Shown here in pieces: positions 29,561 to 54,129 of a stretch of 64,000 nt of DNA; the stretch's first letter is position 1; each line of letters starts with the position of its first letter. The notes beneath the pieces are model-generated. The model saw nothing but the letters and a program-made list of their open reading frames with translations, was not told the origin of the DNA and did not search any database. Position numbers and translations under genes: made by a program. Location: positions 248,001 to 312,000 of the forward strand of contig JAHQIY010000035.1 in the NCBI GenBank assembly GCA_019054805.1, written 5' to 3'. Source of the DNA: Brachionus manjavacas. Its lineage: Eukaryota; Rotifera; Eurotatoria; Ploima; Brachionidae.

Positions 29561-30209
29561 AATATGCCAAAACGCTCAACTTAATATAAAACTTTTTTTG
29601 CTTTATTTTATTTTTATAAAATTACATTTAATTTCAATAATTTACTGCAATTTAAAAAATAAAAGTTTATTTTGAAAAGTTTATTTTTATATAAATTTAA
29701 CAAATTTATGCATGAGTACCAAAATATATATAAATATATACAGTACTGATTTGTTTCAGTGGTTTTACCAAAATTTTAGTAAATTTACGGCAATTCCGGT
29801 AATTTTACGTAAAATCGCAAAAGAGAAAAACAGTAAATTTACCAGAATTTAACGGATTTTCCGTAAAATTTCGTAAAAACCAAAAGGGCCAAAAAAATCC
29901 AAAAAAATCAAAATTTTTGCAATTTTTTCACTTTTTTTAGTTTTTTTTCAAAATTAATAAAAAAATTTAAAAGAAAAAAAATTGTATTGTTTTACGCAAA
30001 TTTTCGTAAATTTTTATTGATTTTAGTGAAAAATAGTAAAAAAAAGGGAAAAAAAGTTAAAAAAAAGAAAAATTTAAATTAAGTTTTTTTAATATTGAAA
30101 TTATTAGATACATATATTTTAGTGATTTGACCAGTCTCCATTTTTCTCAATTACAATTTCAATCACCTAATTTATCAAAATTAATATTTTAAAAAGCCAA
30201 AACCTTTAA

Positions 30210-30640
30210 TTTAGATTTCAACCTTTTTCAGATGATTTATATATTTTCTACATTTTTCAACTGTTAGTGATTTTTCAAATTCTCTTATAGCCAATGCTGC
30301 ATCAGCTATGGTAAACACCATTTTTTTTCTTGCAAATTTCTTCATTTCATTCCACAGCATTTCAATAGGGTTTAAATCTGGCGAGTTAGGGGGTGATTTA
30401 ATCTTAAATTTAATTACTAAATTAGTTTTTAAATTTTATATTTACTTATTATTTTACCCAATTAGTTTTGTTTATATCTAAAAATGATCTGCATAATAAA
30501 CTACTGTGTTTAGGATCATTGTCTTGGTGCAACTGAAATTCCGAATCGAATTTACTTGCACCAAATGGTAATAAATATTCTGACATTATTTCCCTGTATA
30601 ACACTGAATTCATGTTTTCATTGAATATCAAGTCAAATTT
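30210..30640 (-). pseudogene. Tc1-like transposase C-terminal fragment, apparently with an intron
   Basis: Minus-strand 30640-30458 encodes NSVLYREIMSEYLLPFGASK and FQLHQDNDPKHSS ... LDINKTNW. After a 55-nt GT..AG segment (30457-30403) the frame resumes IKSPPNSPDLNPIEMLWNEM, KKFARKKMVFTIADAALAIR, then EFEKSLTVEKCRKYI. The QD and PIE residues are exactly 34 residues apart, the DD34E spacing of Tc1 elements, once the 55 nt are removed. The N-terminal DNA-binding domain and the first catalytic Asp are missing. The break upstream coincides with the nested palindrome at 30624-30785. Confidence 0.75.
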
Positions 30641-30785
30641 TAGTTAAACGCAAGTACGTCCAAATATGAAGGAAAGCTTAATATTTGAGCTGGTATCTCT
30701 CATAAAGGGGCTACAAATTTTGCAGTTTGAATTTTTTCTACTTTGTATTGCGTTAAACTAAAATTTGACTAGATATTCAATGATC
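30624..30785. repeat. Nested short inverted-repeat element inside the Tc1-like element
   Basis: TTGAATATCAAGTCAAATTT at 30624 and AAATTTGACTAGATATTCAA ending near 30782 are inverted copies with about 35 bp of pairing (through AGTTAAACGCAA / TTGCGTTAAACT). They enclose about 90 bp of unrelated sequence. It interrupts the transposase frame, so it inserted later. Confidence 0.55.
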
Positions 30786-31125
30786 TAATAATTTCAATAT
30801 TAAAAAAACTTAATTCAAATTTTTCTTTTTTTTAACTTTTTTTCCCTTTTTTTACTATTTTTCACTAAAATCAATAAAAATTTACGAAAATTTGCGTAAA
30901 AAAATACAATTTTTTTTCTTTTAAATTTTTTTATTAATTTTGAAAAAAAACTAAAAAAAGTGAAAAAATTGCAAAAATTTTGATTTTTTTGCCCTTTTGG
31001 TTTTTACGAAATTTAACGGAAAATCCATTAAATTCTGGTAAATTTACGGGAATTCCGGTGAATTTACTAAAATTTTGGTAAATTCGCGTAAATTTTGGTA
31101 AAATCACTGGAACAAATCAGTACTG

Positions 31126-31311
31126 TATATTTGGTCATTTAAAAAATTTCCGAATTATTAAAAAAAAAAATTTCTAAAGGCTTTTTATTTTTGGTGCTGC
31201 ATGTATCGAGAAAGAAAGTCAAAATTTTTGTATAAAATTTTTATTCTTTAATAATTATTATTCTAAAAATTAAGAAATTATTAAAACTTGAGTAAATAAT
31301 TTAATCTATTT
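31126..31311. other. 3' flank of TMEM161
   Basis: Short A+T-rich spacer, containing minus-strand AATAAA-type hexamers near 31238-31243. Confidence 0.4.
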
Positions 31312-48854: not shown

Positions 48855-48884
48855 TTTTTAAAGTTATAATGATTAAGCAATTAT

Positions 48885-49065
48885 TATTTATTTATTTATT
48901 TGTTTTCTATACTGAGCTAGAGCTCCTTCAGAATAAATTATAAAAAGATCAAAATCGAGTCAAAAAAGAGTTAAAAAAGAGTTAACAAAATAAGATAAAA
49001 TAAAAATAAAATTAAAGTAAATAAGCTTAAAAAAATGTAAAGAAAGTTTAAAAGACAAATATTGA
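48885..49065 (-). mobile_element. Solo 3' end of LINE family A
   Basis: The minus strand contains CTGAAGGAGCTCTAGCTCAG then TATAGAAAAC and an (AAATAAAT)n tail at 48885-48902. The 3' UTR upstream resembles that of 1-1096 (AAACTTTCTTTACATTTTTT). No coding part. Confidence 0.65.
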
Positions 49066-49992: not shown

Positions 49993-51558
49993 CTAGCTTA
50001 AACTGACCCATTCACCATTTTTCTCCAATACTCGGGGAACAATGCTACAAAGCTTGTCGATAAACTCTGAACACTTTTCTGGCGTCAACGTTTTCCAATA
50101 GTCTTTGACGGCAATGACCACTTGGCCCAGAGTTTTTGGCAGACGCTTCGAAACATTCTGGATCAAATCGGTCCAGACCAGTTCGATGGGATTTAGGTCG
50201 TGACTTCTCGGCGGCGACTTGACCCAGTTGATGCCAGTTGACTCGAGAAACTCCTGCGAAAGCTTGGCCGAGTGCTTGGGATTGTTATCCTGATGAAATC
50301 TGTGACCATTTGGAAAGTTTTCTGCAATAAAGGGCACAACGTTCTCCAGCAAAATCTCCAAGTACATGGCTGTAGTCAAAGAGCCGTCGAATATTTGCAA
50401 TGGCGACGCACCTTTTCGGCTGATTGCGCCCCACAAATGAAGAGTGGTTTGTTGTCTTGGCTGATTGGGGTCTGGCGGCTGTCCTTTCAGTTGGTTCAAA
50501 GAAGCCAAAAAAGGCTTGAGAGACGTTTTTCCTATGAAAATGTCCTGGTCGAATTTGTCTTCGACGTGAGCTTGACACCACTGAATTCTGGACTGGCGAT
50601 GGTTTTCGGTGAGCACAGGCTTGCGTCTCATCCTGCGGTACACAAAGCCGTACTTTTTCCGGTAGTATCTGGCTTTTTTGGCCGTGGTGGCCTCGAGTTT
50701 TTTGCGATACAAATACTTTTGAACATAGCCGTAGCTGACCTTTTCTTCGGGCTTGCACACCATGTTAATACGGCTCACTATTTCTTTGATTGACTTGCCG
50801 TTCGAACTGTGATAATCGATTAGCTCTTTTATTGAGACGGGCAGTCGGCGTCTCAGCTTTTCATGCTCGGCTTTTTTCTGAATTTTACTAATTTGAGTGG
50901 ACACAAGGCCGCCGAGGTGCTCGTTCTCGACGTTTTCTTGATTCGCCGCCGGACTTAGCTGAACATTGTGGTGCGCCAACTCACCCTCCTCGCTTTCGTC
51001 ACTCGAATCACCGCCGCCATCGTCCATTTCTGTTCCCACATCGTCTTCAAAACTCATTTTGACGTCAAGCTTTTCTTTTATGCTCTTGGATATGTTCATG
51101 TCGGCCATGATCTCTTGGATCTCTTCTCGCTGAACAATTATTTGCTCGGTGAGATTTTGGTGAGCTTGTGTGAGCACAACCGGCTCGTCACAACACACAA
51201 TTGACTCGGTCGATTCAGTTTGAGCGTGCTTTTGTTCAGGCTGCTTTCGAATCGTCTCAGTACATTGATCCGCTTCGCACTCATTTTTTTCAATTTTTTC
51301 ATTTCTGTCATTTTTATCATTCTTATCAAGTTTAGCATTTTTTCCCTCTTTATCTTCTTCTTGTTCTTGATCTTGGTCTTGATCTTGTTCTTGTTCTTGT
51401 TCTTGCTTTTGTTCTTGTTCGCCCACACCATTTCTGTCACCGTTTTCATCTTCTCTCAATTTTTCAAGCTCTTCTTGTTGTTTCAATTTAAGTTGTCTCC
51501 GAGTGACTGGTGTCGAAGTTTGAATTTGTTGTCTTATTGTTTTATTATGTCTTGTCAT
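49993..51558 (-). CDS. Transposase-derived (Tc1/mariner) gene lacking the first catalytic Asp; probably domesticated
   Basis: Intact single-exon ORF of 521 residues, clearly richer in G+C than its surroundings. Residues 1-110 are charged and repetitive (Gln/Glu/Asp/Lys/Asn-rich, with EQ and DQ repeats). 110-225 are acidic (DDVGTEMDDGGGDSSDESEE). About 236-330 read like a Tc1 helix-turn-helix region (LPVSIKELIDYHSSNGKSIK, VSYGYVQKYLYRKKLEA). The DDE-type nuclease fold follows: the expected (T/S)DE of the first catalytic block is FIGKTS (Gly343-Lys344), then LHLWGAISRKGASPLQIFDG, HQDNNPKH (Asp424) and PPRSHDLNPIELVW (Glu459), exactly 34 residues between Asp424 and Glu459 as in DD34E Tc1 elements. 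Without the first Asp it should not cut DNA. No flanking inverted repeats are seen, and TTTTTTTTAG lies 10 nt before the ATG, as for host genes here. A role in DNA binding or regulation is inference. Confidence 0.85.
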   Translation of the reverse strand: MTRHNKTIRQQIQTSTPVTRRQLKLKQQEELEKLREDENGDRNGVGEQEQKQEQEQEQDQDQDQEQEEDKEGKNAKLDKNDKNDRNEKIEKNECEADQCTETIRKQPEQKHAQTESTESIVCCDEPVVLTQAHQNLTEQIIVQREEIQEIMADMNISKSIKEKLDVKMSFEDDVGTEMDDGGGDSSDESEEGELAHHNVQLSPAANQENVENEHLGGLVSTQISKIQKKAEHEKLRRRLPVSIKELIDYHSSNGKSIKEIVSRINMVCKPEEKVSYGYVQKYLYRKKLEATTAKKARYYRKKYGFVYRRMRRKPVLTENHRQSRIQWCQAHVEDKFDQDIFIGKTSLKPFLASLNQLKGQPPDPNQPRQQTTLHLWGAISRKGASPLQIFDGSLTTAMYLEILLENVVPFIAENFPNGHRFHQDNNPKHSAKLSQEFLESTGINWVKSPPRSHDLNPIELVWTDLIQNVSKRLPKTLGQVVIAVKDYWKTLTPEKCSEFIDKLCSIVPRVLEKNGEWVSLS

Positions 51559-51570
51559 TATTATATGTCT

Positions 51571-52264
51571 AAAAAAAATTGCAAAAATTGAGTATTTTGG
51601 ATATTAAAATTGCAAATATTTCAACAAGTTGCCTACAAGATTGGCTTACGATAATTTCAACAACAAAAAACTCTCATAAATTTGTCTTACAAGACCAAAT
51701 CGAGTGGCAGCGTCAATTCATAAGACTACGCTTTTGGTAGGCTCATTGAGCTCATGTTCATTAAATGTCTTTAAAAATTAAATAAGCCGTTCTCGGATCA
51801 GACACATTTGGTTCATAGGCAAGCATGTTTTTATTAAAACAAATCACTCATTTCCTATTTAGTTATTTTTTTTTCTATTTTAACAGACAAATTAGACGAT
51901 GATGATTTAGAAAAATGGCTTTTTTCCTCTTCTAAAATACTAGGCAGTATGCTTTTGAAAGTATGTAAGTTGCAAGCTTATTCATTAATTTATGTTCTCT
52001 GTACGTGTGTTACTTATGTTTGTGCTTTGAGGAGTGAGCCAATTGCGTATGTATGTAGAAGATTTCAAAAAATTGCAATTTTGTCAGAGTCGAGTTTAGT
52101 TGAGTTTTTTTTTTTTTCCAACATACATAATAAATAAGTTGCAGTAATTTTATTTTATTTTATTTTAATTTTTTTTTATTAGAACAAGCTTATGGCATAA
52201 TTAATTACACTTATGAATTACACCATATGAAAAGAATTTGGACATTCTTAATCCGAATATTTAT
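51571..52264. other. Intergenic DNA with one exon-like segment
   Basis: Contains the segment at 51887-51960 described separately. The rest shows no supported coding signal. Cys/Tyr/Val-rich small frames at 51949-52137 are unsupported. Confidence 0.4.
51887..51960 (+). other. Exon-like segment of unknown gene
   Basis: A pyrimidine-rich acceptor (TTCTATTTTAACAG) is followed by 74 nt encoding KLDDDDLEKWLFSSSKILGS then MLLK. A consensus donor GTATGTAAG follows. Both splice signals are good and the frame is non-repetitive, but no neighbouring exons were found on this strand within reach. Confidence 0.3.
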
Positions 52265-52534: not shown

Positions 52535-53620
52535 TAAATTTTGACAAAATTTTTTAAGCTTTAATCTAAACTTTCATAGCTAAAGACGGTCTGTTTCATT
52601 TTCAGTTGATGGAATATTTAAATGATTTTTACATCAATCTTCTAACTCACTAAGACTTATTTCATATACACCGTTCTTTCTTTTTTTCCAAAAGAAACAA
52701 AACAAAAAGCCTCTGCTTTTACCAAGCGATCTAGTTTCATTCTTCATTTACAACAAAAAGGGGAACCTAGAAAAAAAGATAAATAAATACACCAACGAAC
52801 TAGAACAATGGCTTTTTAAGTGAAAAATGAAGATATCAGTTTAAAAGTGGTGCTCAGTAGTCTTTTCTTAGTTAGTTAAAGAAAGACAATGATAACCTTA
52901 ACTTAAACATTTATGGAAATAGAATCATGAGCCAAAAAGAAATCAAGTTTCTTGGCATAAAATTTGATTGTAAGTTAAATTTAAAAAGACTGGTAGACGA
53001 AATTAAAGAACGCTGCCATTCGAGGCTAAATATTATTAAGATACTTTCAAACAAAAAATGAGGTCTTAATCAAAATACCGAATTTCCTTGCTTGAATTCA
53101 TTTTCAGAAAACAATATCAGAAAACTAAAATAAATTCAGAATACAGCAGTAAGATCTATCCTTAAGTTAAATATGATACTTCCCCCTTTATCATGCACCA
53201 AGAGGCTTTCTATAAACTTAAACTACTTACATTCTCGAATTGACTTTTTGAGTTGAGTGAGAGATATGTCAGGGCAGGACTATATCATTCTATTCCATTG
53301 ATTGCTAGACTGTTGGAGGAATACAAAGAAGGTTTCGAATCAAGATACATTGAATACCCAACTCCATTGTGTAATTGCTACCTTACTGTTTCCTCTTTTT
53401 TTTCATGAAGCTCCAACTATGTTTACATGTGTCACAAGTTACATTCTATTTCAATGCATGTCTTTTTAGCTTTCATTTCATTTTATTTTTGCTTTTTTCA
53501 ACTTTATTTTGATTTTTATTTGATCTTATTCTATTAACTTTATTTTGAATTTGAATTTTCATTTTTTTTAAATTTATTCTGAAGTAGCTCTAGCTCGGTA
53601 CAGAAAACAAATAAGTAAAT
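52535..53620 (+). mobile_element. Decayed LINE family A copy, near-identical twin of 21950-22905
   Basis: Over about 950 bp (52540-53490) it matches 21950-22905 almost base for base, including the same premature stops, the same missing internal segment and the same non-RT-like lead-in (TTTAAGCTTTAATCTAAACT). After about 53490 the two diverge. This copy ends with the family 3' signature GAAGTAGCTCTAGCTCGGTA and an (AAATA)n-like tail at about 53615. Confidence 0.8.
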
Positions 53621-54129
53621 CTTTAATTTCTCATGCTAATTTTAATTTTCTTTTATGTCATATTTTAGCTTATTTTACTCTTATTTTATTTTTTGTTGAT
53701 TTTCATTTTTATTCTTTTTTCTTTAATCTAAAGGCGGTTTAAAAAATATTAATTGTAAATATTTGAACAAATAAAAATGTGTAGTCTATGCCTGTAGTTA
53801 ATTGGCATAAAGTTTATTTCTTAAAATGCCCAAATTTTCTTTAGCTCGACTCCATATGCCAATTTCAATAATTTCGATTCATAATTCTGAAAATCGTTTT
53901 TTAACATATGCCCAGTAATGATTTGAAAATTTTTAAAAATTATGAATTTTTTTAAAGTCTTTTAGTTTTAACAACAACAACATCAACGAAATGATTTAAA
54001 AAAGATCAAATTAGTCGTATTCCAAGATACTTGATTTTTAAGCTTTTGAATTTTTTTTTAAATTAAATTTTAGTCGATAAAAATATTAGAGCAATTTTTT
54101 GCTGTTTTTTTGATGCGCCAAAATAGATA
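53621..54129. other. A+T-rich spacer upstream of the surface-protein gene
   Basis: No repeat boundaries. GCTGTTTTTTTGATGCGCCA then AAATAG ends 3 nt before ATG 54130 and could be an acceptor or chance. Confidence 0.4.

Follow-up and report, generated by a model that had tools for sequence, protein, structure and literature searches.

A Tc1-clade transposase without its first catalytic aspartate, probably domesticated and duplicated in the rotifer Brachionus manjavacas

Results

A 64,000-nucleotide stretch of the Brachionus manjavacas genome (assembly GCA_019054805.1, contig JAHQIY010000035.1, positions 248,001 to 312,000; hereafter the window) contains an intact open reading frame of 521 codons without internal stop (49993–51558, minus strand; gene A), delimited by open reading frame analysis, genome search and Pfam, which very probably is a Tc1 transposase domesticated as a host gene. 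The host-gene case is built on several observations: the first catalytic aspartate (Asp1) is lost both in gene A and in a close paralogue on contig C32 (gene B), the two frames are intact, strong constraint on the domain persisted after the duplication, no terminal inverted repeats were found, the flanks of the two genes are unrelated except for one 69-bp match, and the predicted fold is kept. Given domestication, a DNA-binding regulatory role is the somewhat favored function. To the whole account, in which domestication weighs most, we assign a probability of about 0.7.

Among solved structures, gene A matched Sleeping Beauty SB100X by phmmer (PDB 5cr4, E = 3.2e-17). With residues 226-521 as query, the Pfam family DDE_3 scored 56.1 bits (cut-off 28.6), the match being located at residues 356-477, and the predicted fold matches those of Sleeping Beauty, Mos1 and SETMAR. 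Gene A therefore carries a Tc1/IS630-type DDE domain according to Pfam and to the similarity with SB100X in sequence and fold; this RNase H-like domain, delimited by DDE_3 and the fold matches, spans residues 315-521 and the stop codon (49993–50616, minus strand). The Pfam listings for residues 226-521 and for gene B, where DDE_3 was leading, contained no DDE_1, CENP-B or Tc5-type DNA-binding domain, a negative result for pogo-type domains that holds at the sensitivity of the search filters, which drop most weak matches. Upstream of the DDE domain, predicted helices at about residues 243-252, 257-267 and from 276 onward would form a single helix-turn-helix-like set, from which a region at residues 236-300 was delimited (50659–50853, minus strand); the second helix-turn-helix of a bipartite PAIRED-like domain is not seen in the model. 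The family HTH_Tnp_Tc3_2 scored 33.2 bits (cut-off 31.5) on residues 226-521, matching at residues 301-332 and covering only profile positions 40-71 of 72. Thus, the proposal of the first-pass annotation that the helix-turn-helix region had been kept holds for one such motif at most, as judged from the predicted model.

The block of gene A aligned with the first catalytic motif reads Q-D-I-F-I-G-K-T. The triad of Sleeping Beauty is D153, D244 and E279 according to PMC4820933, and the positions of the aligned chain were matched to this numbering by counting. In the phmmer alignment, G343 falls on the first Asp of S-D-E-T, K344 on the Glu of this motif (codons at 50527–50532), D424 on the second Asp (50287–50289) and E459 on the catalytic Glu (50182–50184; all minus strand). 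D424 and E459 are separated by 34 residues, the Tc1 spacing already recognized in the first-pass annotation. A complete D-D-E triad is found in neither gene, Gly343 occupying the Asp1 position in both. Of the 28 related loci retrieved from the same genome (L003-L030), 16 had a match spanning the first block; Asp was present in 16/16 and the following Glu in 15/16, the remaining locus (L024) having a stop at the position of the Glu. As Tc1 copies of this genome align without gap over the block, where they read I-F-V-D-E-T, no shift of the alignment restores the first Asp, and the D-to-G replacement stands as first proposed. The G343-K344 codons are GGA AAA in gene A and GGC AAG in the paralogue. 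Indeed, a different synonymous codon is used in the two genes for each of Gly343, Lys344, Asp424 and Glu459, so each residue was retained while its codon drifted. We infer that two-metal DNA cleavage has been lost from the gene A protein.

The whole 114-Mb genome was searched in six frames, which gave 87 matches; 83 of 383 candidates were scored, so that the counts are lower bounds. Only one close match was found among those scored, gene B, with 88% identity over residues 224-520. Gene B is an open frame with a likely protein of 403 residues (L002 1498-2706, G000:C32) that reads F-I-G-K-T. The next match by E-value among the candidates scored was 34% identical. Thus the many near-identical copies with inverted repeats that would have spoken against exaptation did not appear. 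A blastn comparison of about 10 kb around each gene recovered the shared domain (848 alignment columns, 78%) and, beyond it, nothing but one 69-bp match. Scans of genome-contig and viral-contig collections confirmed no relative.

Over 286 codons, genes A and B differ at 195 nucleotides (38 in first, 13 in second and 144 in third codon positions) and at 28 amino acids; among 100 shared fourfold sites, 58 have diverged. The NG86 method gave dN 0.087 and dS 3.18 (ratio about 0.03) and LWL85 gave dN 0.093 and dS 1.22 (ratio about 0.08), both ratios being approximate as dS is near saturation and third-position GC (GC3) differs between the genes (0.487 vs 0.814). A ratio near 1, which had been named as evidence against exaptation, was therefore not observed. 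In neutral simulations run to equal third-position divergence, protein identity was at most 32% and a stop appeared in 500/500 runs, against 90% identity and no stops in the real pair. As a yardstick, eight actin genes of the genome (28 pairs, 86.6-100% protein identity) gave LWL85 values for 26/28 pairs, with dN of 0-0.094, and transposon exon pairs gave values in 3/6 cases, with dN 0.22-0.31, dS 0.83-1.40 and ratios of about 0.18-0.29. By dN, the domain is thus under a tighter hold than the transposon exons, about equal to that of the more divergent actins. The amino acid differences between A and B amount to 4/79 in residues 236-314 and 24/207 in residues 315-521 (Fisher p 0.12). Since Gly-Lys is common to both genes, the loss of Asp1 is most simply older than their split, and later constraint acted on a protein without Asp1. 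Two of the actin genes, about 6 kb apart (G000:C48:100422-101540 and 107849-108967), are identical over the 1119 bp compared.

Terminal inverted repeats (TIRs) of at least 40 bp at at least 89% identity were found by blastn in the 3-kb flanks of neither gene A nor gene B, the best candidate at gene B having 30 columns at 83%; flanking TIRs at TA were thus observed for neither gene, as the first-pass annotation had stated for gene A. Intact frame, purifying selection and apparent immobility (no TIRs found, flanks unrelated except for the 69-bp match) hence occur together. The single long inverted match around gene A (about 48890-49057 / 53459-53620, 171 columns, 79%) was rejected as TIRs because it is a dispersed repeat, for which 40 matches (itself included) were scored out of 1667 candidates in the genome. 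The two inverted copies that flank the gene lie at 48883-49057 and 53459-53627; from nearby reverse-transcriptase fragments, we would guess that these copies are ends of a non-LTR (long terminal repeat) element. The same TIR thresholds were applied, with flanks of about 1.5 kb, to 24 of the 28 related loci (all but L013, L018, L022 and L023), and TIRs were found in 11/24, several of them beginning with T-A-C-A-G-T.

The window itself holds a Tc1 relic (29736-31130, minus strand; transposase part 30131-30628). Its inverted repeats at 29736-29988 and 30903-31130 (253 columns, 84%), starting ATATACAGTACTG (A-T-A-T-A-C-A-G-T), are under the 89% line, yet they are located at the ends of the element. 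A gap of 49 bp lies between the DDE pieces of the relic (30229-30402 and 30452-30628), in keeping with the introns of related copies. Judging from sequence, loci L012, L014, L025 and L027 carry GT-AG-like introns, about 40 to 120 nt long, at two conserved positions in the transposase (1243-1284 and 1463-1504 in L025, with matching places in the other three). Six-frame stops at these places are therefore not necessarily damage, and the first-pass description of all other transposons here as broken may go too far, given that the frame interruptions of these four loci coincide with the intron-like segments. Genes A and B are continuous at both DDE-domain intron places, and an exploratory tree, rooted by choice on the group of resident copies farther from them, puts A and B outside the group of these four loci. 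The continuity of the two genes could thus stem either from intron loss, as in a retrocopy, or from an ancestral lack of these introns.

The N-terminal extension of gene A, recognized by composition and genome search (residues 1-235; 50854–51558, minus strand), is acidic and Gln-rich as first described, with 25% Asp+Glu, 12% Gln and a net charge of -27. GC by codon position in this part is 0.604, 0.264 and 0.387, a coding-like pattern. Residues 91-225 returned no match but themselves in a genome search (E up to 0.001). The extension of gene B, of 117 residues as compared with 235 in gene A, likewise returned only itself when the whole of it was searched at the same limit.

A basic linker, KKLEATTAKKARYYRKKYGFVYRRMRRKP (residues 286-314; 50617–50703, minus strand), precedes the DDE domain, with K287R as the sole difference from the paralogue. 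About 15 extra, mostly basic residues (ATTAKKARYYRKKY) at 50617-50703 are present in both genes and sit where another intron, separating the helix-turn-helix part from the DDE part, seems to be present in resident Tc1 copies; conceivably, these residues arose by exonisation of an intron. Upstream of the gene, a T-rich AG acceptor-like site (51569–51578, minus strand) corresponds to the one noted earlier, its T8-AG ending 10 nt before the ATG. GTAAGC starts 91 nt and GTAAGA 132 nt upstream of the ATG, so that these acceptor-like and donor-like sites possibly delimit a candidate intron in the 5' untranslated region. An Rfam search of the window gave no matches.

The GC content of gene A (0.447) is higher than that of the whole window (0.276), as had been remarked. 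By itself, GC content was rejected as evidence of a host gene, since the UNC45-like gene of the window is similar in GC3 (0.507 vs 0.487 in gene A). For the domains only, GC3 is 0.566 in gene A and 0.798 in gene B, as compared with 0.20-0.28 in four transposon first exons and 0.268-0.649 in the eight actin genes. The GC3 of the whole gene B (0.81) exceeds that of all eight actins (up to 0.65), and the loci retrieved from this genome average 28% GC.

Discussion

We propose that, in this animal lineage, the host recruited a Tc1-clade (DD34E) transposase as a gene of its own, which would have gained an acidic N-terminal extension and lost its inverted repeats. The first catalytic Asp and the adjacent Glu would have become Gly-Lys before duplication into gene A and gene B. 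The helix-turn-helix-like region, the basic linker and the RNase H-like domain may then serve as a DNA-binding module, perhaps dimeric, while the fast-changing acidic tail would contact other proteins. By analogy with CENP-B or the TIGD proteins, the product could regulate chromatin or transcription. The two halves of the proposal made in the first-pass annotation, exaptation as a DNA-binding or chromatin protein, are thus unequally supported: three observations that would have spoken against a host gene were looked for and none was made, so this half is well supported, while we infer the DNA-binding or chromatin half from the helix-turn-helix-like region, the basic linker, the intact predicted fold and the acidic tail.

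Several points weigh against this account. On the full-length proteins, HTH_Tnp_Tc3_2 scores below its 31.5 cut-off (26.9 for A, 29.0 for B). The two N-termini are no more similar than expected from composition, 301/2000 shuffles scoring as high, and their homology was rejected as unproven. Besides the approximate nature of the A/B ratio, the maximum likelihood dS of 11 is unusable, and selection between copies also acts on the transposases of lineages that are still active, so that dN/dS alone is no proof of host use. GC3 is only suggestive because the lowest actin (0.268) overlaps the transposon range. Finally, the absence of TIRs alone is weak evidence, as 13/24 related loci likewise gave none at the thresholds above within about 1.5 kb. 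A dN/dS below 1, missing TIRs and a clear transposase ancestry would also suit a low-copy Tc1 lineage that is still selfish or died only recently, whose frames are intact on account of their youth and whose TIRs were overlooked or deleted. We consider this quite improbable: A and B both lack Asp1 and show no TIRs, whereas the relic in the window does, the surroundings of the two genes are unrelated beyond the domain apart from one short match, and both frames are still intact after more than half of the shared fourfold sites have diverged.

Both genes retain D424 and E459, though these would be free to change if the protein only bound DNA; this argues against the protein being a mere scaffold and gives altered chemistry a small probability. 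The active site might have been rearranged in a nuclease that still works, with D339 or D337, both kept in the two genes, or another acidic residue in place of Asp1. In the model, however, D339 is found where the first strand begins, four residues away from the Asp site, and nearer resident elements have Y or F at the D339 position; moreover, the neighboring Glu is replaced by Lys344 and the retention of D424 and E459 may be structural, so we regard this reading as marginally less probable still than a selfish lineage. A better, although still unlikely, alternative is that A and B are trans-repressors of resident Tc1 elements, dead for cutting and occupying TIRs or forming inactive mixed complexes with active transposases. 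The loss of Asp1 with a retained helix-turn-helix-like region suits this idea, and the same genome holds related Tc1 copies with long TIRs. Nevertheless, protein identity to pieces of the resident copies is just 28-47% for the nearer and 21-24% for the farther ones, and the exploratory tree also leaves A and B outside the resident families with the FVDE block, which makes cross-binding doubtful. Chance open frames or assembly artefacts might have been suspected when a single sequence stood behind the first-pass annotation. This is now a negligible concern: the paralogue refutes it, the domain being present on two contigs with strongly synonymous divergence, and, given the base composition of the N-terminal part, 225 codons would stay open by chance with a probability of about 6e-7.

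Domestication as a host gene can be compared with known systems. Compared to Tc1 and Sleeping Beauty (DD34E), genes A and B have Gly-Lys in place of Asp1 and its neighboring Glu, show no TIRs and have support for at most one helix-turn-helix; they also differ in their acidic N-terminal extension and in having one close paralogue only. SETMAR is a domesticated mariner transposase whose fusion partner is a SET domain and whose triad is DDN. Here, the first triad residue is lost instead of the last, and the transposase part is joined to an acidic tail in which no domain is recognized. Like CENP-B, JRK/JRKL, TIGD, POGK and POGZ, often with a degraded triad, the present genes are domesticated transposases of the wider group. 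The pogo-derived genes belong to vertebrates and carry DDE_1 and CENP-B_N/Tc5-type DNA-binding domains, whereas A and B are of Tc1 type (DDE_3) and from an invertebrate. According to PMC7325037, SETMAR (Metnase) is a chimeric gene of anthropoid primates, and triad variants occur among domesticated transposases; Ka/Ks values given in PMC7386202 are 0.093 for TIGD2, 0.055 for JRKL and 0.068 for POGZ. Catalytically degraded domesticated transposases are well known from these two sources (SETMAR, CENP-B, TIGD1-7, POGK and others), with mariner or pogo origin. In invertebrates, Imagin was domesticated from another transposon, Ginger1, in crustaceans (PMC12863088). Among the titles and abstract beginnings listed in searches of an open-access library, subscription journals lying mostly outside, no Tc1-clade domesticated gene in an invertebrate came up.

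The kind of gene is thus already known, and A and B would add a Tc1-clade member in an invertebrate. A bolder idea, to which we lend little credence, is that this catalytically dead, duplicated protein with fast-evolving acidic tails is a sequence-specific chromosomal protein, either a CENP-B-like factor that binds particular sites or a protein that guards against resident Tc1 elements, which would have arisen independently of the vertebrate pogo-derived genes. Two Tc1-clade paralogues with one common catalytic loss in an invertebrate constitute a natural experiment, in which selection still acts on the fold and on the remaining two acidic residues after loss of the triad's first residue.
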